The notes under the pieces: model-generated
What the model was told of the DNA's origin: nothing
Database searches by the model: none
The model's input: the letters and a program-made list of their open reading frames with translations, nothing else
Origin: Candidatus Saccharimonadota bacterium
GTDB taxonomy: Bacteria > Patescibacteriota > Saccharimonadia > Saccharimonadales > Saccharimonadaceae
NCBI GenBank assembly: GCA_017511205.1
Contig: JAFWLE010000007.1
Location: 64,367-128,366 of the forward strand
Reading direction: 5' to 3'
DNA length: 64,000 bases
Translations under genes and position numbers: made by a program
Shown: one piece after another, positions 3,616-61,715 of the stretch
Numbering within the stretch: position 1 is the first letter of the stretch
How the letters are laid out: the number at the start of each line of letters is the position of its first letter

Positions 3616-4815
3616 ATGGCAAAACTACTATTTGTTCACGGTGGTGAAAAAGTAAAAAAAGACACTTTAGGCAATAACTACACAGACGGTTCTTACAACC
3701 ACGAGACATGGAAAAGATATAAAAAGCTAGCAAGTGAAATAACAGCTGCATTCAGAGTGGAAGATACTATCTACGAACAACGTGACGCAATGAGCAAATT
3801 CCAGCCAATAGATAAAGATATTACTATTATTCCAATAAAAGATAGAAAAAGAAGCATTAGTGAATATCTTTCTTTAAAAAACAAAAAATATAATAAAAAG
3901 CTAATTGAAAATAACGTCAAAAAAAGTGACATTATAATTGCGAGAGTACCATCAGAAATTTCTTATTACGCAATAAACTTTGCAAATAAATATAATAAAA
4001 AAATTTTAGTAGAAGTAGTTGGTTGTGCCTTCGACAGTATGTGGAATCACAGCATCAAGGGGAAAATCTTGGCTATTCCTGAATATCTAAAACAAAAACA
4101 CTATCTAAAAAAAGCACCATACGCAATCTATGTCTCAAACAATTTTCTACAAAAACGATACCCTATAAAAGGTATGAGCATTGGATGCTCAGACGTTGTA
4201 CTCCCTAGTATAAAAAGAAATGATTTAAAGAATAGGTTAGCAAGAAAGAAAAAAGAAACTGACAAATTCATACTAGGAACCGTAGGCGCAGTTAATACTA
4301 AATATAAAGGGCAACAATACGTAATTAAAGCAATGAAAACCCTAATAGATAATGGTTATAACCTAGAATACTGGATAATAGGAGGCGGAGATAACACATA
4401 TTTAAATAATTTAACAAAAAAATATCATCTCGAAAAAAATGTTAAATTTACAGGCCCTAAAAACCACTCAGAAATTTTCAATTTGATAAAGCAAATGGAC
4501 ATATATATACAACCTAGCAACGCAGAATCACACGGACGGGCTGTTCTAGAAGCTATGAGCGTATCTTGCCCGTGCATAGGATCTTCTACCGGAGGAATAC
4601 CAGAATTGGTCAATGAAAACTTTATTTTTAAAAGAAAAAAATATAAAGATTTGGCAAAAAAAATTAAGAAAATGATTAATGAATGCACAGCGGAGATGGC
4701 AATTTACAGTTACGAGAAGTCTAAACAATTCGCAAAATCAAAGCTAGATAAGAAAAGGATTGATTTTTATAGAAAAGTATTTAATAATAAAATAGAAGAT
4801 GAAAAAGATAGTTAG
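3616..4815 (+). CDS. Glycosyltransferase, GT4-like (GT-B fold)
   Basis: 399 residues. The C-terminal half has the GT-B nucleotide-sugar site: ILGTVGAVNTKYKGQQ, the FTGPKNHSEIFNLI strand, and the acidic signature SNAESHGRAVLEAMS...GGIPELV. These proteins transfer a sugar from a nucleotide donor to a lipid-linked glycan on the cytoplasmic face. An AGGTAA ribosome site precedes the ATG. It is the first gene of a four-gene plus-strand block and overlaps the acetyltransferase by 17 nt. Base composition is markedly richer in A+T than in the surrounding housekeeping genes, which suggests transfer. The sugar cannot be read from the sequence. Confidence 0.82.
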   Translation: MAKLLFVHGGEKVKKDTLGNNYTDGSYNHETWKRYKKLASEITAAFRVEDTIYEQRDAMSKFQPIDKDITIIPIKDRKRSISEYLSLKNKKYNKKLIENNVKKSDIIIARVPSEISYYAINFANKYNKKILVEVVGCAFDSMWNHSIKGKILAIPEYLKQKHYLKKAPYAIYVSNNFLQKRYPIKGMSIGCSDVVLPSIKRNDLKNRLARKKKETDKFILGTVGAVNTKYKGQQYVIKAMKTLIDNGYNLEYWIIGGGDNTYLNNLTKKYHLEKNVKFTGPKNHSEIFNLIKQMDIYIQPSNAESHGRAVLEAMSVSCPCIGSSTGGIPELVNENFIFKRKKYKDLAKKIKKMINECTAEMAIYSYEKSKQFAKSKLDKKRIDFYRKVFNNKIEDEKDS

Positions 4816-5317
4816 ATATTTTTTGCATGATTTTTTATTTAATGTGGTTATGGGAATAACCGCTATCTTACCCAACAATTATATCTCAACTAATATTAGA
4901 GGTTTTTTGGTGAAGCATTTTTTCAAGAAATGTGGTAAAAAATTTAAAATTGCATCCGGTGTAAAAGCATTAAGAGTCGATAATATTACGATTGGAGATG
5001 ATGTATATATAGCTCATAATGTCTGGATAAATGGCGTTGGCAAACTACAATTATCAGATAATGTAATCATATCTCCAAATTGTGTTATTGACACCAGCCG
5101 ACATATCTATGAAAATGGTCAAATCACCAACAAATCACATTCGGAAAGCATACACATCGGAAAAGGAACATGGGTAGCCGCAAATTCAACAGTTATTCAC
5201 GGAGTAAAAATTGGCGAAGGATGTATCATTGCAGCCAATACGTGCGTCACTAAAGATGTAGAGTCTCACAAAATGGTTGGTGGAGTACCGGCAAAAATAA
5301 TCAAGGAACTGAAATAA
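4799..5317 (+). CDS. Hexapeptide-repeat O-acetyltransferase (WbbJ/maltose acetyltransferase-like)
   Basis: 172 residues with the repeating hexapeptide pattern of a left-handed beta helix from about residue 60 (ITIGDDVYIAHNVWING, VIISPNCVIDTSRH, IHIGKGTWVAANSTVIHGVKIG, CIIAANTCVTKDV) and the closing GGVPAKIIKEL. Such enzymes acetylate sugars using acetyl-CoA. The histidine in the TSRH segment is the likely catalytic base. The gene overlaps the preceding glycosyltransferase and is followed after 3 nt by the polymerase gene, so it probably decorates the same polysaccharide repeat unit. Confidence 0.85.
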   Translation: MKKIVRYFLHDFLFNVVMGITAILPNNYISTNIRGFLVKHFFKKCGKKFKIASGVKALRVDNITIGDDVYIAHNVWINGVGKLQLSDNVIISPNCVIDTSRHIYENGQITNKSHSESIHIGKGTWVAANSTVIHGVKIGEGCIIAANTCVTKDVESHKMVGGVPAKIIKELK

Positions 5318-5320
5318 ACT

Positions 5321-6730
5321 ATGAAAAAAATAGTCAATCTTATAATGTTCCTCGTCCCTACATTCACATTGTTTTATACTATCCTATTTAATCATTTTGA
5401 AAAATATGATTTATTATTTCTAATGCCTCTTACCTATACAATTTGCTATTTTGGATTTCTGAAAAAATTTTTGTTTGCAAAATTCTCATTTTTTAGGGTT
5501 ACTTTTATCATAATATTGTTTTTAAGATACGTCATCCTTCCATTACTAATAGTTGTATCTAATTATGATAATATTGTATCAATCTATAAACCAACAATAT
5601 ATCAAACAAGAATTGCAATATTGTTAATGGTTTACGAAATAATAGCCTACTCATTTTTTATATGGATTTATCCTAAACTTAAGAAAGATAAAACAAGAGA
5701 AAAAACTATAAAAAAATATATAGATATAAACTATACTAATCCTATTTTTATAATCTTTTGCATCATTGCAATCTCCTTACTCATGTTAACGCCAGGAGTC
5801 ATTAACTATTTTAATTTCATAACTGTAAGTAAAGATTTCAATAGTTTAGACCTTTCGACAACAGAAGAAATTACTATACTGTTTGTTGCCTGCGCAAAAG
5901 GAATAATATTCTTAATACTGTTAAATTATTTATCAAAAAAATATAAAAGAAACAATAACAAGTTATACTATTATTTAGGGCTATTAGTGACAATTATTAA
6001 TTCATGCATATATTATGGGTCTAATAGATCGACATTTATTTTTATCGCGATTGCATCGTTTGCAACATTCTACGCTTTTTACAGAAAAGGATTGAAACAA
6101 ATGGCGCTAATAATGAGCACTATAATATTCATTATCCTCCCAATCATAACAACATATAGAAACTACTACGATTACTATTCAGACTTATCTGGAATGCAAA
6201 AAACACTAGTTTCATCGCAAGGCACTATAAATGAATACTTTGGTGGTATTAATAATGTTGCAGTCGGATTAGAAACAGCAAATGAATACCAAGATAAAAG
6301 GACAATGTCTAATCTATTATTTGATTTTACAAGACCAGTAATTGGACTAAACATTTTCCTAAAAAATATAGATATGGAGTATTCGAATCTATTTTTTAAT
6401 CATTGCTACCATAAAAGTGATTTAGTTTCGGTCATATTCCCAACTATTTCACAAGGATATTTTTATTTTGGTTTTTTCGGCGCCCCATTGCTCGGCATAC
6501 TCTTAATATATATAGCTTTAAAGCTTGAAGAATACTGCATTAATCTATCTAATCCATACCTCGTTTACTTCTTTACGCCATCCTTGCTAAGACTTGCAAC
6601 ACTAACCGGGCCAAATGTAAATATTCAGATGAATGACCTATCCCTAAAAATACTTGCTCCTATCCTACTATTACTGCTATACAAGGGGATTACAAAAAGA
6701 GAAAACAGAAAGCAGCTAATAAATGCATAA
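5321..6730 (+). CDS. Wzy-like oligosaccharide repeat-unit polymerase
   Basis: 469 residues with roughly a dozen hydrophobic segments and one larger outer loop (about residues 280-370), a layout typical of O-antigen/capsule polymerases. These proteins share little sequence, so the call rests on topology and position between an acetyltransferase and a flippase gene. The motif YYGSNRSTFIF in a membrane segment resembles those seen in Wzy/EpsG-type proteins. It would join lipid-linked repeat units outside the membrane. Strong A+T bias like its neighbours. It overlaps the flippase start by 8 nt. Confidence 0.72.
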   Translation: MKKIVNLIMFLVPTFTLFYTILFNHFEKYDLLFLMPLTYTICYFGFLKKFLFAKFSFFRVTFIIILFLRYVILPLLIVVSNYDNIVSIYKPTIYQTRIAILLMVYEIIAYSFFIWIYPKLKKDKTREKTIKKYIDINYTNPIFIIFCIIAISLLMLTPGVINYFNFITVSKDFNSLDLSTTEEITILFVACAKGIIFLILLNYLSKKYKRNNNKLYYYLGLLVTIINSCIYYGSNRSTFIFIAIASFATFYAFYRKGLKQMALIMSTIIFIILPIITTYRNYYDYYSDLSGMQKTLVSSQGTINEYFGGINNVAVGLETANEYQDKRTMSNLLFDFTRPVIGLNIFLKNIDMEYSNLFFNHCYHKSDLVSVIFPTISQGYFYFGFFGAPLLGILLIYIALKLEEYCINLSNPYLVYFFTPSLLRLATLTGPNVNIQMNDLSLKILAPILLLLLYKGITKRENRKQLINA

Positions 6731-8231
6731 CAAAAATCGAAATGTAATTCTGAATATAATAATGCCATTTTTCACACAAGTGGTATCAATTATCGTTGCC
6801 CTTCTCGTTCCAAGAATGCTAATATACACATACGGCTCACCAATTAATGGACTGATAACATCAACAAATCAAATCGTATCCTATTTCGCAATAATCGAAA
6901 GCGGAATTTGTTCTATAGCATGCGCATTCCTAGCGAAACCATTATTGGACAATAATCACGATCGTATTAATAATATCATGACCACTATTAGCAGTTTTTA
7001 TAAAAAATTCGCATATATACTATTGTTATTTACAATAATTTTTTCATTCGTATACCCCATAAAAATGGGAAATGACTATCTAAAGAGCACATTAATAATA
7101 ATTCTCCTTTGTCTGCCAAGTATTCTAGGATACTTTTATTATCTAAAATACAACCTTATACTCTTCGCAAATGGTAAACAATTCACTATAATTTTTTCAG
7201 CCTCAATCACAAACCTCTTAGTTGCATTAGTTCAATATCTCTTAATAAAAATGAACGCAGATATTATACTAATTGTATTAATTGTTCCATTATTCAACAT
7301 AATCAGGTTAGAATTACTAAAAAAACTAATCAAAAAAGAATTCAACTATTTAAGTTTTAAAGCAATAGAAGACAAAAGCATATTAGATCAAAAATGGGAC
7401 GCTATTATACTAGTTATTTCAAGAACACTAAAAACATTAATTCCACTTCTATTTTTGAACATCTTTTATGGGTTCAAAGAAATCAGCGTCTTCTCGATTT
7501 ATGTAACAATTTTTCATGTCGGAAACTCTATACTAACCACAATAGGAAATGGACTGGTCCCAGAATTTAGTAAAAAAATTGTGTCAAATGGAAATATTAG
7601 CTCATTTTACAAATATTTAAACATTTTTAGCTACTCAACCACATTGCTTCTATCTTCTTGTTTTGTATTCCTATTCCACTCCTTCTTAAACATATACATT
7701 GGCACTGACACGGATATTCCATACTATTCTAAACTACTTACCTTAACTTTTATAATAAACGAAGCTATAATGAACGTTAGATTAGTCCCAGAAATACACA
7801 TTAAAGCAACAAACAGTTTCAAAAAAACAAACAAAAGTATGTATATAGAATTAGCTCTTTCGTTCATTCTCACTCCACTTAGCTGCTTACTATTCGGCTA
7901 TGAAGGCATTCTAATTGGTTCTATTATTGGAAGTATTTATAGAACATATAGTATTACAAACTTCACAAAAAACAGCATAAAAACAAGTTCATTCAGCTAT
8001 TCTAAAAATACAATCTTCTCAATACTATATATAGTGATATGCATTATAATCTCTAGCACAACCTTAGAAAATAGTACAATAAGCGGCATCGGAAAATGGA
8101 TACTATTATCTATAGCCGTTGTTATTATCAATGCGTTGCTAATTCTAATAACACAAGTTTTATTATTAAATAAAATACAATTGCTCAATATCAGCAAAAT
8201 CAAAAATAAAAAATACACAAAAAAGAAATAA
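6723..8231 (+). CDS. Wzx-like lipid-linked oligosaccharide flippase (MOP superfamily)
   Basis: 502 residues with about 12-14 membrane segments. It opens with RNVILNIIMPFFTQVVSIIV and PRMLIYTYGSPINGL, a start typical of polysaccharide flippases of the MATE/MOP group. The protein would flip undecaprenyl-linked repeat units across the membrane for the polymerase encoded just upstream (8-nt overlap). The lysine-rich C-terminal tail is cytoplasmic. It is the last gene of the A+T-rich plus-strand block, and the next gene converges on it from the other strand. Confidence 0.82.
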   Translation: MHNKNRNVILNIIMPFFTQVVSIIVALLVPRMLIYTYGSPINGLITSTNQIVSYFAIIESGICSIACAFLAKPLLDNNHDRINNIMTTISSFYKKFAYILLLFTIIFSFVYPIKMGNDYLKSTLIIILLCLPSILGYFYYLKYNLILFANGKQFTIIFSASITNLLVALVQYLLIKMNADIILIVLIVPLFNIIRLELLKKLIKKEFNYLSFKAIEDKSILDQKWDAIILVISRTLKTLIPLLFLNIFYGFKEISVFSIYVTIFHVGNSILTTIGNGLVPEFSKKIVSNGNISSFYKYLNIFSYSTTLLLSSCFVFLFHSFLNIYIGTDTDIPYYSKLLTLTFIINEAIMNVRLVPEIHIKATNSFKKTNKSMYIELALSFILTPLSCLLFGYEGILIGSIIGSIYRTYSITNFTKNSIKTSSFSYSKNTIFSILYIVICIIISSTTLENSTISGIGKWILLSIAVVIINALLILITQVLLLNKIQLLNISKIKNKKYTKKK

Positions 8232-43101: not shown

Positions 43102-43860
43102 ATGTTATTACCAAATGAAATTGCCAAAAAATCTGTCGCGACCGGAAAGGCGAAGGCCAATCTATCTGCTTTTCAAATGCTACTTCTCGGTGCCTTTGCC
43201 GGCGCCTTCATCGCTCTCGCTGGAGTCGGTGCCACCTTTGGCAACGTCTACGGCGGCAAAATCGTCGGCGCCCTAATTTTTCCCGTCGGACTCATCATGG
43301 TAGTCATCGCCGGTAGCGAACTCTTTACCGGCAACAATCTCATGATTACTGCCCTACTTAAAAAAGAGATCACTTTAAAACAGCTTTTAAAAAATTGGTG
43401 CCTAGTTTTTCTCGGCAATTTCCTAGGCGCTTTAATTGTTACATTGCTGGTAGTATTTAGCGGTTTATTCGATAGCATTTCTGATACTGTTATCGCCACC
43501 GCCACAGCAAAATCCAATCTCGGATTTCTCGAAGCCCTCTTCCGCGGCATTCTCTGTAATTTCCTCGTCTGCATCGCCGTCTGGATGTCCTTTGGCGCCG
43601 AAACCATTTCTGGCAAAATCCTCGCCATCTTTGGCCCCATCATGCTATTCGTGCTGTGTGGTTTTGAACATTCCGTAGCTAATATGTTTTATGGACCTGC
43701 CGGCCTACTCGTTGCTGCCAAAAACGGCGTCGCTCTGGAAAATCTCAATCTCGGTATGTTTCTAATTAATAATCTTTTGCCAGTCACTCTCGGCAACATC
43801 ATCGGCGGCGCTGGCCTCGTCAGTTGCGGCTACTACCTCACCTTTCTGAGAAAGAAGTAA
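43102..43860 (+). CDS. Formate/nitrite transporter (FNT) family channel
   Basis: 252 residues with six membrane segments. FNT marks: GAFAGAFIALAGVGATF, GSELFTGNNLM, NFLGALIV and the second half GILCNFLVCIAVWMSFGAE and FEHSVANMFYGP. FocA/NirC-type pentamers pass formate, nitrite or lactate and other small anions. In a fermenting epibiont, export of formate or lactate would make sense. AGGAGG ribosome site before the ATG. Expressed from its own TGTATAAT-type promoter after a terminator. Confidence 0.92.
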   Translation: MLLPNEIAKKSVATGKAKANLSAFQMLLLGAFAGAFIALAGVGATFGNVYGGKIVGALIFPVGLIMVVIAGSELFTGNNLMITALLKKEITLKQLLKNWCLVFLGNFLGALIVTLLVVFSGLFDSISDTVIATATAKSNLGFLEALFRGILCNFLVCIAVWMSFGAETISGKILAIFGPIMLFVLCGFEHSVANMFYGPAGLLVAAKNGVALENLNLGMFLINNLLPVTLGNIIGGAGLVSCGYYLTFLRKK

Positions 43861-43953
43861 CCTTACGCTAAAAACTATTACTACGTAAAAGTCTACCTCA
43901 CCTACAAATATTCAAAAACCAAAAGCAGGCTCTCTTCGCATGCTTGATAGTAC

Positions 43954-44991
43954 TTAATCGAAATAATCGATCTTCATTGCCTTTTTGACTTCTAGGAGGG
44001 TACTTTCTGCTGCTTTGTTCGCAGCAATGGTTCCCTCTTTTAGAATCTTCATCACATCCGCTGTTTTAGCAAACTCTTCTCTGCGCTCGCGAATCGGAGT
44101 AAGCTCCTTATTGATTACGTCAAACAAAAATTTCTTTACTCTTCCATCGCCAATCCCGCCTTTTTTATAAGCGTCTTTAAGCTCGTCGAGATTTTGGAAC
44201 TCCGGATAAAACTCTTTAAACGAATCGTCCGTCACAAACGCATCAAGATAGGTGAAAATAACATTATTTTCTAGTATACCAGGCTCATTTATTTCCCTCG
44301 GGAAAGAAACGATGTTATTGATTTTTTTCTTGATAGTCTTTTCATCATCGGAAAGATAAATACAATTCCCAATTGATTTGCTCATTTTTTCGTTGCCATC
44401 AGTACCCGGCAAGCGGAAACATGCTTCGTTCTCAGGAAGCACCGCTTTACATTCAACCAAAGTATCAGTTTTGTAAATACGATTAAATGAACGGACAATT
44501 TCACGTGTCTGCTCAAGCATTGGCTCCTGATCTTCGCCAACCGGAATCAAATTAGCCTTAAAGGCAGTAATATCGGCAGCCTGAGATACTGGATAATTAA
44601 TGAATCCAATCGGCACACCCTTACCAAAATTCTTTGTACTAATTTCAGTTTTGACAGTTGGGTTACGAAGCACGCGATTGTATGAAACCAGATTCATATA
44701 ATACATTGTGAGCTCGGGAAGAGCAGGAATCATAGACTGGATAAAGAAAGTTACTTTCTTCGGATCCAAACCTACAGCTAAATAGTCCAGCATTACTTCC
44801 TTTACGCTCTCGCGAATTTTGTCAGGATTATCTGCGTTATCGGTTAGAGCCTGAGCATCCGCAATCATCAAAAAGAAATTATCATAATCACCTTGATTTT
44901 GCATTGCAACGCGAGCTTTCAAGCTTCCTACATAGTGTCCTATATGGAGCTTTCCTGTTGGTCTATCTCCTGTAAGTATTATGTTTCCCAT
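43954..44991 (-). CDS. trpS: Tryptophanyl-tRNA synthetase
   Basis: 345 residues. Class I signatures are GDRPTGKLHIGHYVGSL (HIGH) and GNEKMSKSIGNCIYL (KMSKS). Between them lie the tryptophan-binding segments SYNRVLRNPTVKTEI and GFINYPVSQAADI. AGGAGGAG precedes the ATG, with TATAAT about 25 nt upstream. Confidence 0.95.
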   Translation of the reverse strand: MGNIILTGDRPTGKLHIGHYVGSLKARVAMQNQGDYDNFFLMIADAQALTDNADNPDKIRESVKEVMLDYLAVGLDPKKVTFFIQSMIPALPELTMYYMNLVSYNRVLRNPTVKTEISTKNFGKGVPIGFINYPVSQAADITAFKANLIPVGEDQEPMLEQTREIVRSFNRIYKTDTLVECKAVLPENEACFRLPGTDGNEKMSKSIGNCIYLSDDEKTIKKKINNIVSFPREINEPGILENNVIFTYLDAFVTDDSFKEFYPEFQNLDELKDAYKKGGIGDGRVKKFLFDVINKELTPIRERREEFAKTADVMKILKEGTIAANKAAESTLLEVKKAMKIDYFD

Positions 44992-44999
44992 TTTATCTC

Positions 45000-45354
45000 C
45001 TCCTACTTATTATACACCATTTTAAAACATAAAAGCACCACAAAAACACTTCATACTCATATGAAGCCATATTATAAAGGAATTGTCCACAGTGACGTAA
45101 CGAACGATAGGCTTTGCCGCATATTCTTTTTAATGCATAGCATCAACGTTTTATCGTGATAAAACAAAAGTAATAAGGTCCAAGATTGCAAGCATTCGCC
45201 GAGACGAAGCCTTCTTTTTTGTTTCAAAAAAATTGTTCGCTAGTATCTTCCCGCGACCGCGCTTGATGCGCGGTCACTTAAGTTCTTCCAATTTTAAAAC
45301 GGCGGGCAGAAAGTAAGGAAAACAAGGAAGAATGTGATCCTGCCAGAGGCGTGG
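45000..45354. other. Gene-free region between trpS and the variable protein gene
   Basis: I see no gene. It contains GTTTTATC-GT-GATAAAAC (about 45150-45167) and a strong 8-bp hairpin GACCGCGC-TTGAT-GCGCGGTC (45255-45275). The stretch 45252-45310 resembles 60212-60251, downstream of the second variable protein gene (shared TCTGCC-GCCGT, ATTGGAA and GACCG in the minus direction). The shared downstream block probably belongs to the diversification system. Confidence 0.5.
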
Positions 45355-45531
45355 CTACTGGAGCAAGCATCTCATCGATAGACCGTTGTAGCGATCGTAG
45401 TAGCTGGCGGGGACTACAACTGACGAACTCACGTAGAGGCTGTACATGTTGTTGCTATTGAGCCTAGTGGAAGGCCAGAAGTTACCGTACGAGCCCTGAT
45501 TGTACGCCGAGCCATCGTAGAAACGGCCCGA
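45355..45531 (-). other. Variable region 1 (DGR-type)
   Basis: The last 177 bp of the gene. Aligned without gaps to 60268-60444, most differences fall at the first two bases of codons ending in C or T (TAC/GGC, AAC/TAC, AGC/GGC, CTC/AGC), while the framework (GQG-YG-FW-STR, SxRCxL) is fixed. This pattern is what adenine-directed mutagenesis of AAC codons gives. Confidence 0.7.
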
Positions 45532-46914
45532 CAAAGGAGTAGAAAGCGCATATTGGTAACTACCAATATTAGATGCCGTAGTATTAGTGTAATAATTGCT
45601 ATTTAGAACACCATATTCACCAGCAGAGCCCCCACTTGGCATTCTCCAACCAGATGGGCAGAGGTCTTCAGTAGCATTACCAGTAGATGTGCCGTAGTCA
45701 GTGCCATTGCCATAGCAGTAAGAGCCTGCACTAGCGGCACAGAAGTTATAGTAGACACCTATCTTACCAGAACCATTGCCATAGCTAGTAGTGGTAGTGT
45801 CTTTAGACCAACCACTACCACTGGTAGCAATAAGTGGATCTGAATAGCTGCGGCCTGAAGCATAGGTTGGGCTATCAGTCCATTCTACTATGCCAGTTTT
45901 AGCATATTTATATAGTGGAGAGGAACTATCTGTAGAACCACCACCATTCTTTAAGTAGCCGAGTGTAGTGGCAGAAGCATTAGTATTAGTTTCTGCTACA
46001 GCAGCTAATGTATCAGCATCGCTTAAGTCTAATCTAAGATTATCTAGAAGCCATAGGTTACCGTCTTTAAGCTTAGATACACAGTAAGGTTCTTCATCAC
46101 GAGAATCTCTTAAGTAATATGGAGCATCCTCAGTAAGTGATGCTAGAACAGTAGATTTGTTAGAGCTGGTGATATCTTGCATATAGGTAATGTTTGGTAC
46201 TGGAGTATTACAAGATGTTGGAGCTGGTGGCAATACTTTTGGTGCCGGAGCATCATTCGGATGCACTAAAGTATATTTAACCTTACCAGTATAAGTATCG
46301 GCTGGTTGAGTCTTACTTATGTAAGCTGCATAGGTAGTAGTCATAGTAGAACCTTCGGCATTAGTTCCTACGTCAGTTCCAGCTGTCCTTGTAGCTACCT
46401 TTGTCCAAGTATTAGGTACTTCGTGGTAAGCGTCATAGCCAGTAGAAATGGTAAGCGGATAGTTTACATTAGCTCCCGACGTAGCTGTGAGTTTCACCGC
46501 CCAATTGCTAACGTCTGGGTCTCCAGCAGAAGTGGCAGTACCAGTATCAATAGTAGCAGTACCACTTGCTACTGTTCCTACTAGCTTATTACTATTAGTA
46601 TCTGCGATAGTTTCACCAGTAAAGCCGGTAGCATAGATGGAAAAGCCACTATTATCGTTACAAATTACCTTAATGGTAGTAGAACCTATTTCTGATTCAT
46701 AAGTGCCATTTACTACTTCTCTTGTGTGGCTATTCATACCATTTCCACTCATAGTACATGAGACTGGGACGGTAATGGCTACGTTATCTACCACATCATC
46801 TGCAGAGACGTAGGTAGAAGCTAATGCTAGACCAGTGATAGTAGTTTAGCTTACCAGTCCAGCTGTAGCTAAACTAGCACTACTGATTTTATGTTTTGCT
46901 TTCCTATCTTTCAT
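45355..46914 (-). pseudogene. Secreted variable lectin-fold protein gene with a stop codon in its signal peptide
   Basis: Read from the ATG at 46914 (AAGGAAAA ribosome site), the frame encodes a signal peptide that is interrupted by TAA at 46848-46846 (codon 23). It then continues in the same frame through the signal peptide's second half (LALASTYVSADD) and 490 further codons. The nearest later start is a GTG that would give a protein without a signal. The mature part has a Thr/Ser-rich repeat region and a C-terminal lectin-like/FISUMP-type domain (GWRMPSGGSAGEYGVL, GSYGNFWPSTR, SMRCLLQ). It is homologous along its length to the intact 60268-61653 product. Confidence 0.7.
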
Positions 46915-46957
46915 ATTACTCAATTTTCCTTATAATATTGTATGACCTTCATAGGGT

Positions 46958-46979
46958 TAAATATTAACGTTAATATTTA
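46958..46979. promoter_or_regulatory. Perfect 22-bp palindrome upstream of the variable protein gene
   Basis: TAAATATTAAC and its exact complement, centred at 46968/46969, about 45 bp before the start codon and close to a TATTAT -10-like box. It is a likely operator site. It is not present before the second variable protein gene. Confidence 0.5.
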
Positions 46980-47078
46980 CTATAGCAATTTTATTGTAAA
47001 CTACTTTTTAATTTTTGTAAATAGCATAACCAGTTTTCAAAAAATCTGTAAAATCGATTTTTCAGAATCAACGTATTA

Positions 47079-47091
47079 AGTCAGGAGGGGC
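47079..47091 (+). repeat. Partial copy of the tRNA-Lys 3' end
   Basis: AGTCAGGAGGGGC is identical to 47323-47335 in the tRNA-Lys gene and in the same orientation. It is 244 bp away and may be an attachment-site remnant. Confidence 0.45.
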
Positions 47092-47094
47092 ATA

Positions 47095-47164
47095 GATTTT
47101 TGCTTCGCAAAAATCTTTCGCAGGGCGTCGCCTCAGAAAAAGAAGAATTAATTCTTCTTTTTCT
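47095..47164. repeat. Two short palindromes next to the tRNA block
   Basis: 47095-47115 is GATTTTTGC-TTC-GCAAAAATC (9-bp arms). 47135-47164 is a perfect 30-bp palindrome with half AGAAAAAGAAGAATT and no loop. Confidence 0.75.
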
Positions 47165-47213
47165 CTCAGCTCCTACTGCGAGCGAACCCTACGGGTTCGT
47201 TCCCCACACTAAT

Positions 47214-47319
47214 CATTTCGTCTCAGAAGCCGGCAGATTGGTTTTTTCTTCGTGCGAAGCGCTATTATTGATAAAGCGAGCACGAAAAAAGCCGAGATGC
47301 CGGCTTCTGAAACGAAATG
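47214..47319. repeat. Inverted repeat abutting the tRNA-Lys 3' end, includes a tRNA terminator
   Basis: Arms 47214-47235 and 47298-47319 are inverted copies, 22 bp with one mismatch (CATTTCGT-TCAGAAGCCGG). In the minus direction AGCCG-GCATCT-CGGCT-TTTTT (about 47285-47305) is a good intrinsic terminator for the tRNA-Lys transcript. The right arm ends at the encoded CCA. Confidence 0.7.
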
Positions 47320-47394
47320 GTGAGTCAGGAGGGGCTCGAACCCTCGACACCGGGCTTAAAAGGCCCGTGCTCTAACCAGCTGAGCTACTGACCC
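47318..47394 (-). tRNA. tRNA-Lys (UUU)
   Basis: Complete cloverleaf with the 5' acceptor GGGTCAG paired to CTGACTC. Anticodon loop CTTTTAA gives anticodon TTT. The 3' CCA is encoded (47320-47318). Confidence 0.95.
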
Positions 47395-47404
47395 AAATTT
47401 TTAA

Positions 47405-47481
47405 TGGTGGGCGATACAGGAGTTGAACCTGTGACCTCGTCTACGTCAAAGACGCGCTCTAGCCAGCTGAGCTAACCGCCC
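47405..47481 (-). tRNA. tRNA-Val (GAC)
   Basis: Acceptor GGGCGGT/ATCGCCC, anticodon loop TTGACGT giving GAC, TTC-containing T-loop, encoded CCA. Confidence 0.94.
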
Positions 47482-47511
47482 ATCTTCATACTGCTCGTCC
47501 TGTAAAACAAT

Positions 47512-47587
47512 TGGTGGCGCCGACTGGACTTGAACCAGTGACACAAGGCTCTTCAGGCCTCTGCTCTACCAGCTGAGCTACAGCGCC
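47512..47587 (-). tRNA. tRNA-Phe (GAA)
   Basis: Acceptor GGCGCTG/CGGCGCC, anticodon loop CTGAAGA giving GAA, encoded CCA. First of the three tRNAs in transcription order. Confidence 0.95.
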
Positions 47588-47630
47588 ACAGCAATTACCA
47601 TTATAGCACACTTGTGTTATAATGAAAAGT

Positions 47631-60267: not shown

Positions 60268-60444
60268 CTACTTAAGCACGCATCTAACTGAGAAACCGCC
60301 GCCGCGACCGCCGATTTCGGCTGGACTGACGCTACTATCATACACGCTGAGGCCCCTCATACTGTAATTACTGCTGCGAGTAGAAGACCAGAAGTAGCCG
60401 TAGTCGCCCTGGCCATACGTCGAGCCACTGTCGAAGCCGCCCGA
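60268..60444 (-). other. Variable region 2 (DGR-type)
   Basis: The last 177 bp of the gene, exactly the length of variable region 1 and alignable without gaps. Variable codons are mainly AGY, GGC, TAC and GAC types with fixed third bases; see 45355-45531. Confidence 0.7.
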
Positions 60445-61653
60445 GAGAGGAGTAGAAAGAGCATTTCTGAAGATAGTAGCATCACTAGAATATGCTGTAT
60501 ATAGAGCCTGGTATTCACTAGATGTAGGCATTCGCCAGAGAGCTGGGCAAATATCTTCTGTAGCGTCGCCCGAAAATGTGCCAGCACTAGTGCCATTACC
60601 ATAGCAGTATGAACCAGCAGAAGCAGCACAGTAATTATAATAAATCCCGACCTTATGATTACCAGCACCATAATCAGAGTTTGCCGAAATAGTATCTTTA
60701 GAAGCAGCATTGATTAATGGTGCAGAATAGCTATAGGTATTCCAACTGCTAGATACTCCAGCTGTTGCATATTGATCAGAAGCAGTGCCACCACCATTCT
60801 TGAAATAATCTAGAGTCGTATCGGAAGCGTTAGTATTACCTTTAAGCGTATCTATATCTACGGTAGTAGAATCTAGCCTTAAATTATCCAGAAGCCAGCA
60901 TTTATCATCAGCAAGTCTTTGAGCCTTGTAGACTTCGCCGTCACGGACATCTACAACATTAATAGGTGAGGTGGTTGGGCATTTATCTATAGATAGATTT
61001 TGCATATCATAGGTTGGTTCTGGTGTTGGCGCATCATACGGATGCACGAGTGTAAACTTCACTTTACCAGTATAAGTATCAGCAGGTTGAGTAGTAGAAA
61101 CATAAATGCCATAAGTAGTGGTGAAGTTAGCACCTATCGCACCAGAACCAGAATCAGTAGCGGATGTACGATAAGCTACTTTAGTATATGTGCTTGGAAT
61201 GATTTCAGAGTCTGTAAAATCATAATTTGCATCATTCCGAATAGTTGGGGCATAAGTACCAGAAACCGGAGTGAGTTTCATAGACCAAGATGAGTCGGTA
61301 TCACCAGAACTATACTTACCGGTTGGAATATCATAAGTATGATCTACGGTGCTACTAATCATTTTGTTATTACCAAAAGTATCATCAGAATAGCCAATAG
61401 CATAAACCGCTAAACCATTAGTATCATTACAAACTGCTTTAATGTTGGCAGAACCAATATCGGTCTTATACTGACCACCAGTCATGGAAGCATTATGAGT
61501 AAGGTTAGTACCGGAAAGAGTGCAAGAGACTGGCACATTAATAGTAATATCGTCTACGACGTCATCGGCGGAAACTGGAAGAGCTAAAAACACCGACAAA
61601 AGCATAGTCACGCCAATTAAGCCAATAGTTATTATCTTAATCGTATTAAACAT
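60268..61653 (-). CDS. Secreted variable protein with lectin-like C-terminal domain, DGR target type
   Basis: 461 residues from the ATG at 61653, after AAGGATGG; the longer frame to 61707 crosses the promoter (TTGAAA, 17 bp, TAAACT). Signal peptide about 1-30 with cleavage near LPVSA-DD. The middle is Ser/Thr/Asn-rich with few charges. The C-terminal domain has DKCWLLDNLRL, GIYYNYCAASAGSYCYGNG, DICPALWRMPTSSEY and YGYFWSSTR...FSVRCVLK, a FISUMP/C-type-lectin-like fold used by retroelement-diversified binding proteins. Probably a surface or secreted binder for host cells. It is the intact homologue of the 45355-46914 gene. Confidence 0.8.
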   Translation of the reverse strand: MFNTIKIITIGLIGVTMLLSVFLALPVSADDVVDDITINVPVSCTLSGTNLTHNASMTGGQYKTDIGSANIKAVCNDTNGLAVYAIGYSDDTFGNNKMISSTVDHTYDIPTGKYSSGDTDSSWSMKLTPVSGTYAPTIRNDANYDFTDSEIIPSTYTKVAYRTSATDSGSGAIGANFTTTYGIYVSTTQPADTYTGKVKFTLVHPYDAPTPEPTYDMQNLSIDKCPTTSPINVVDVRDGEVYKAQRLADDKCWLLDNLRLDSTTVDIDTLKGNTNASDTTLDYFKNGGGTASDQYATAGVSSSWNTYSYSAPLINAASKDTISANSDYGAGNHKVGIYYNYCAASAGSYCYGNGTSAGTFSGDATEDICPALWRMPTSSEYQALYTAYSSDATIFRNALSTPLSGGFDSGSTYGQGDYGYFWSSTRSSNYSMRGLSVYDSSVSPAEIGGRGGGFSVRCVLK

Positions 61654-61715
61654 AGCACCATCCTTATTTATCAAGTCCAGTTTAGCATAGACGCTATGAT
61701 TTTTCAAGCAAATCG

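Follow-up and report, generated by a model that had tools for sequence, protein, structure and literature searches.

Are the variable 3' ends of two lectin-like genes in this Candidatus Saccharibacteria genome products of a DGR, and is such an element still writing them? DGRs are reported to be enriched in CPR (PMC8144416). The question was raised by an initial annotation of the window, the whole stretch of 64,000 nucleotides that was analysed, in which two variable regions (VR1 and VR2, Table 1) were read as DGR-type and thought to be diversified from a distant locus. The analysis extended from the window to the rest of the assembly (completeness 97.5%) and to other genomes of the genus, including relatives from the ruminant gut, at one genome per species.

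Table 1. Location of the features in the window and at the DGR locus on contig C7 of the same genome (the latter in L002 positions)
Feature	Position	Strand	Remarks
VR1	45355..45550	-	last ~60 codons of the lectin-like gene; the initially annotated 45355-45531 plus ~20 bp of further template homology
VR1 lectin-like gene	45355..46914	-	natural ATG start at 46912-46914; encodes a signal peptide, a beta-rich N-terminal domain and, at the C terminus, a C-type-lectin (FISUMP-like) domain; interrupted in the assembly
In-frame TAA in signal peptide of VR1 gene	46846..46848	-	from comparison with intact signal peptides of paralogues in the same genome
GC-rich hairpin GACCGCGC-ATCAA-GCGCGGTC	45255..45275	-	80 nt beyond the stop codon of the VR1 gene; z -3.4
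VR2	60268..60464	-	variable region of the second lectin-like gene; second sub-version of the template lineage of VR1
VR2 lectin-like gene	60268..61707	-	open reading frame; above the FISUMP cut-offs of Pfam and NCBIfam
C7 (L002) lectin gene	4624-6243	+	first in order
C7 (L002) template	about 6685-6895	+	adjoins the RT
C7 (L002) RT, 376 aa	6975-8105	-	YVDD and IGNLTSQ motifs
C7 (L002) ORF, 290 aa	8129-9001	-	upstream of the RT; C-terminal part weakly Avd-like

Over 177 bp the two variable regions can be aligned with no gap (45355-45531 with 60268-60444, minus strand, both 3' ends of lectin-like genes), as had been noted. The codon pattern ascribed to this pair, changes at codon positions 1 and 2 with fixed C/T third bases, was overstated as to the third bases: the 69 differences are distributed over codon positions 1/2/3 as 28/20/21, so the third position is not fixed; a pyrimidine occupies it in both VRs at 37/59. 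A shift relative to the rest of the genes is nevertheless seen. The mismatch rates between the two genes at the three positions are 0.48/0.34/0.36 in the VR and 0.37/0.29/0.53 upstream, where the third position is highest. The pairwise pattern is weak because VR1 and VR2 appear to come from different template versions, and the comparison was discarded as proof of a DGR.

A codon alignment of the lectin family separates two groups by their DNA skeleton. One group follows the template on contig C7; the other, referred to as clan B, includes VR1, VR2 and the VRs at C4:58190, C9:110338, C9:109585 and C6:29.2k. When 147 genomes of the genus were searched, clan-B sequence was found directly beside RTs in several congeners, in the form of templates rich in AAC and AAT. 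Each of these templates differs from the nearby VR at 11-23 adenines and at no other base per 80-bp window (G083, G108, G023, G053 and G034); in G142 the clan-B template has no VR in its vicinity. Cis template/VR pairs occur at most of the congener RT loci examined, and all pairs examined contain 0-2 non-A mismatches. The clan-B template pattern turned up in only a few of 174 congeners. In a tree of the RTs, those of clan-B type (G142, G083, G023, G108 and G048b) form one clade with 100/100 support, and the RT of this genome falls in a separate clade with those of G009, G048, G076, G103 and G115. Template lineage and RT lineage thus appear to go together. G048 has both RT lineages; therefore one genome can carry two. 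Among the congener sequences, G096:C17:10000-18000 (L205) and G157:C4 (L204), from genomes filed as different species, are 100% identical over 8,001 bp, likely one contig binned twice.

The congener templates allow VR1 to be judged against a plausible source. Homology extends across 195 ungapped columns, and mismatches are enriched at template adenines. The columns tested were 49 with A in all three congener templates and 77 with the same C, G or T in all three. The six clan-B VRs of this genome depart at 21-31 of the A columns versus 1-9 of the non-A columns; VR1 is changed at 21/49 template A and 6/77 template C/G/T (Fisher p=4e-6), and VR2 at 31/49 and 9/77. The chosen non-A columns are conserved in the templates and may be constrained by the protein, which is why two controls matter. 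When only codon positions 1-2 are counted, VR1 departs at 21/49 A and 2/46 non-A columns (p=7e-6), and upstream of the VR the comparison of the VR1 gene with its nearest paralogue is flat (0.41 of A sites and 0.40 of non-A sites differ). Against the whole template of one congener, with columns unselected, p is 0.0005 or 0.0002. The bases found at template A are A132 G99 T52 C11 in the six VRs, and A300 G119 T97 C32 and A498 G179 T129 C28 in intact cis pairs of the genus. C is the rarest in all spectra; those of the six VRs and the cis pairs resemble each other without agreeing exactly (chi-square p=0.02 for the non-A bases). By this adenine-specific departure from the templates of intact congener DGRs, VR1 counts as a genuine DGR product, made by an element of a kind still at work in sister species, and the DGR origin proposed for the variable region is upheld.

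The skeletons also bear on the number of templates involved. The VRs at C4:58190, C9:110338 and C9:109585 are identical to one another at 0.97-1.00 and VR1 is identical to these three at 0.91-0.94; VR2 is closest to C6_a (0.95) and at 0.82 to VR1. These values show at least two template versions among the clan-B VRs of this genome. The near-identity of the first three could mean quite recent writing. Just downstream of 5347 in L035 (C9:110338), a short second remnant resembling a VR 3' end follows the stop of the intact VR gene, possibly as if a VR end had been exchanged or duplicated.

As stated in the initial annotation, the window has no RT or template. The sole RT found in the assembly lies on contig C7, and the expectation of a distant RT with an adjacent AAC-rich template is borne out there as far as its existence goes; its action on VR1 is unsupported. 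The best match of this RT among solved structures is 8ub7 (E=9e-27), which we take to be the DGR RT of the Bordetella phage BPP-1. Residues 190-276 of the neighboring 290-aa ORF match the Avd model NF033474 at E=0.0036, under the curated cut-off. The template and its cis VR are identical at 128/128 non-A positions and 31/53 A are changed. The C7 locus thus has the appearance of a classic DGR that writes its own neighbor gene; its lineage, termed clan A, is different from clan B. It shares with the congener loci L178, L179, L180 and L193 a common motif beyond the cis-VR stop (L002:4624-6243 to 9001), near CCTCCCG-C-CTTTCC. The motif beside the template reads CCTCCCG-A-CTTTCC in loci of the same RT clade, resembling an IMH/IMH* pair.

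The assembly yielded no cognate template for either VR. Pattern searches with 45-bp cores of both VRs, in which each base could come from the VR itself or be A and up to 3 mismatches were accepted, returned only self-matches. A clan-B template query of the assembly returned VRs, the C7 template and one noncoding relic, and no template; a clan-B RT query returned just the C7 RT, with no clan-B RT or relic. Viral contigs, considered as carriers of the lectin or RT, yielded no relatives. At C9:61144-61285 (L033:5145-5285) lies a clan-B-like VR fragment that is noncoding and has no open frame. It was tried as the lost template and rejected, as adenines are retained in it at no better a rate than in VRs (0.60 vs 0.55 for VR1); it is probably a VR relic.

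The VR1 gene itself is damaged as assembled. Downstream of the TAA in its signal peptide no further stop interrupts the frame before 45355, which leaves 479 codons counted from a GTG, and a start at this GTG would yield a protein without a signal peptide; the gene does not count as an intact target. The TAA may reflect a mistake in the assembly or be polymorphic among strains. As they stand, this stop and the decayed skeleton of VR1 would speak against current writing of the gene. At 43860-47600 of the window, trpS and the VR1 gene are situated between fnt and a tRNA-hisS cluster, which are directly adjacent in the nearest congener, G057; with the VR1 gene missing from this matching locus, synteny failed as a test of orthology. 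Other FISUMP genes are found near the tRNA-hisS cluster of G112, and the region may be an insertion hot spot. The stem of the hairpin downstream of the VR1 gene recurs downstream of the paralogue C4:58190 and, one pair shorter, downstream of the G096 homologue. It is possibly a target-recognition hairpin or a transcript end. Such a hairpin is missing from many cis targets of congeners, and as a conserved DGR signal of the genus it was rejected for this inconsistency.

The protein encoded by the VR1 gene scores 35.5 bits with TIGR02145, below the cut-off of 41.65; the VR2 protein passes with 45.8. The C-terminal 275 residues of the VR1 protein were modeled by AlphaFold2 at pLDDT 88. When the domain model alone was compared with VIA-align, the leading rows were mostly C-type lectin folds: the top match is the Lcl C-terminal domain (Z 7.1, a modest score, rmsd 3.0, 110 residues), and several animal and snake lectin-like domains follow at about Z 5. 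Foldseek matched neither model to the PDB at E<=0.001, and a sequence profile of the VR1 domain had zero matches in the PDB. The model predicts a C-type lectin fold for the VR1 protein. The signal peptide of the intact paralogues suggests export, and the encoded proteins are most likely secreted or surface binders of lectin fold. Saccharibacteria have other bacteria as their hosts, and little is known of the proteins by which they attach. From this biology, a part in host attachment may be proposed for the lectin-like proteins. The family has ~20 loci in this 0.8-Mb genome, a large coding share for a reduced genome. At C7:47030-50416, a ~3,700-aa reading frame contains at least three tandem FISUMP-like lectin domains whose VR-like ends match neither template skeleton.

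VR1 looks like a leftover rather than an active site because the genome apparently carries no template for it and because its gene is interrupted. We consider it probable that VR1 is a former DGR target, retired and decoupled, whose cassette was lost or whose diversified relatives were dispersed or acquired without the cassette. The best reading of the family as a whole is that VR1 is among at least six VRs that go back to a second DGR lineage, since lost or missing from the assembly. In the sequence of events proposed, a clan-B RT would have copied the template RNA with errors at adenines, and the cDNA would have replaced the 3' end of several lectin genes by mutagenic retrohoming. Afterwards the genome would have lost the clan-B cassette, or the diversified genes would have been dispersed or acquired in its absence. 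Since then the variants would have been frozen and drifted as ordinary genes, VR1 being among the more decayed. A more elaborate version, in which a stock of frozen lectin variants, written by a DGR of a lost lineage, is maintained in the genome as fixed binders or as recombination donors into live targets, is speculative and rather improbable.

Several other histories could produce variable lectin ends of this kind. Diversifying selection, or recombination among paralogues, might act on the lectin binding face with no DGR involved, and the variable codons are indeed placed in the binding fold of a family with many paralogues. This is very improbable: the differences track template adenines beyond the preference for codon positions 1-2 seen in the restricted test above, the third-position rate between VR1 and C4:58190 falls from 0.54 upstream to 0.22 within the VR, and the matching templates adjoin RTs in congeners. 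Diversification of VR1 and VR2 from a distance by the C7 DGR, the view taken in the initial annotation, would have the merit of an element intact in sequence, located in the same genome and next to an A-rich template. What this template writes is its own neighbor, and it fits VR1 and VR2 poorly. Its alignment with VR1 requires a 3-nt gap and shows agreement at about 60% of positions, and that with VR2 covers no more than 23 bp; the pattern searches, as described, recovered no template for either VR; and there are differences at the 3' ends, where homology is required for cDNA priming. The C7 template was rejected as the source of VR1 and VR2, and for the template as it is at present, action from C7 is effectively refuted.

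The remaining alternatives both involve clan B. A clan-B DGR in the unassembled 2-3% of the genome, where a gap could indeed hold the cassette, or on some element that was binned elsewhere might still be diversifying VR1 and VR2 in trans. Template/VR repeats can break assemblies (clan-B VRs stand at the contig starts of G096 C13 and C24), and three VRs of this genome have nearly one skeleton. VR1 and VR2, however, differ at 18% of skeleton columns, as compared with 0-2 positions in all real cis pairs, and therefore one current template cannot have written both recently. With the VR1 gene interrupted in addition, and none of the clan-B VRs examined in this genome at a contig end, present diversification in trans is unlikely. 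Alternatively, the clan-B VR genes may have arrived ready-made, by duplication or by transfer from a relative, and never have been diversified in this lineage. The absence of the VR1 gene from the G057 locus agrees with such an arrival, as does the stretch of ~40 bp just upstream of the VR that is identical in C4:58190 and the G096 C24 region, although hisS shows 79% identity. This genome has several VR versions that share one skeleton and differ in their adenine patterns, which is more easily explained by writing within the genome, and we regard arrival without local writing as a minority possibility, somewhat unlikely. It keeps the conclusion that VR1 is retired and differs only in its history.

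If VR1 is a retired target, live and fossil DGR targets can be told apart by using templates from sister species, beyond the genome that carries the target. The findings suggest gain and loss of DGR lineages in Saccharibacteria, with sets of frozen lectin variants left behind. The lectins that are written and those that are frozen together are candidates for host-binding proteins. Remote targets and remnant VRs, like DGRs themselves, are already known, and a case in which the missing template lineage is found in relatives is a modest addition.

The C7 locus and many of the congener loci are of the type described for CPR/Patescibacteria DGRs (DGR clade 2, Roux et al. 2021, PMC8144416): an RT, an adjacent template, a 3'-terminal VR in a gene of C-type lectin fold and changes at adenines only. 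VR1 differs from that type in that neither an RT nor a template of its lineage is present in the genome. Another parallel is the cyanobacterium Nostoc sp. PCC 7120, in which remote variable proteins and a remnant VR gene, all3226, were described (Vallota-Eastman et al. 2020, PMC7517822); the authors of that work suggested that the diversification components are removed once a variant has been selected. As with all3226, there are dispersed lectin-domain paralogues and remnant template homology, with no proximal RT. Unlike all3226, the missing template lineage is identified here in sister species, a different and intact-looking DGR is kept, and at least six VRs are concerned. The DGR of Bordetella phage BPP-1 offers two points of comparison: its RT (8ub7) is the closest to the C7 RT among solved structures, and its target Mtd (1yu4) aligns with the VR1 domain model at Z 5.0, rmsd 3.6, over 119 residues. 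The setting is different, a phage tail protein in BPP-1 and, in this genome, a bacterial chromosome with lectin-like proteins that are probably secreted.
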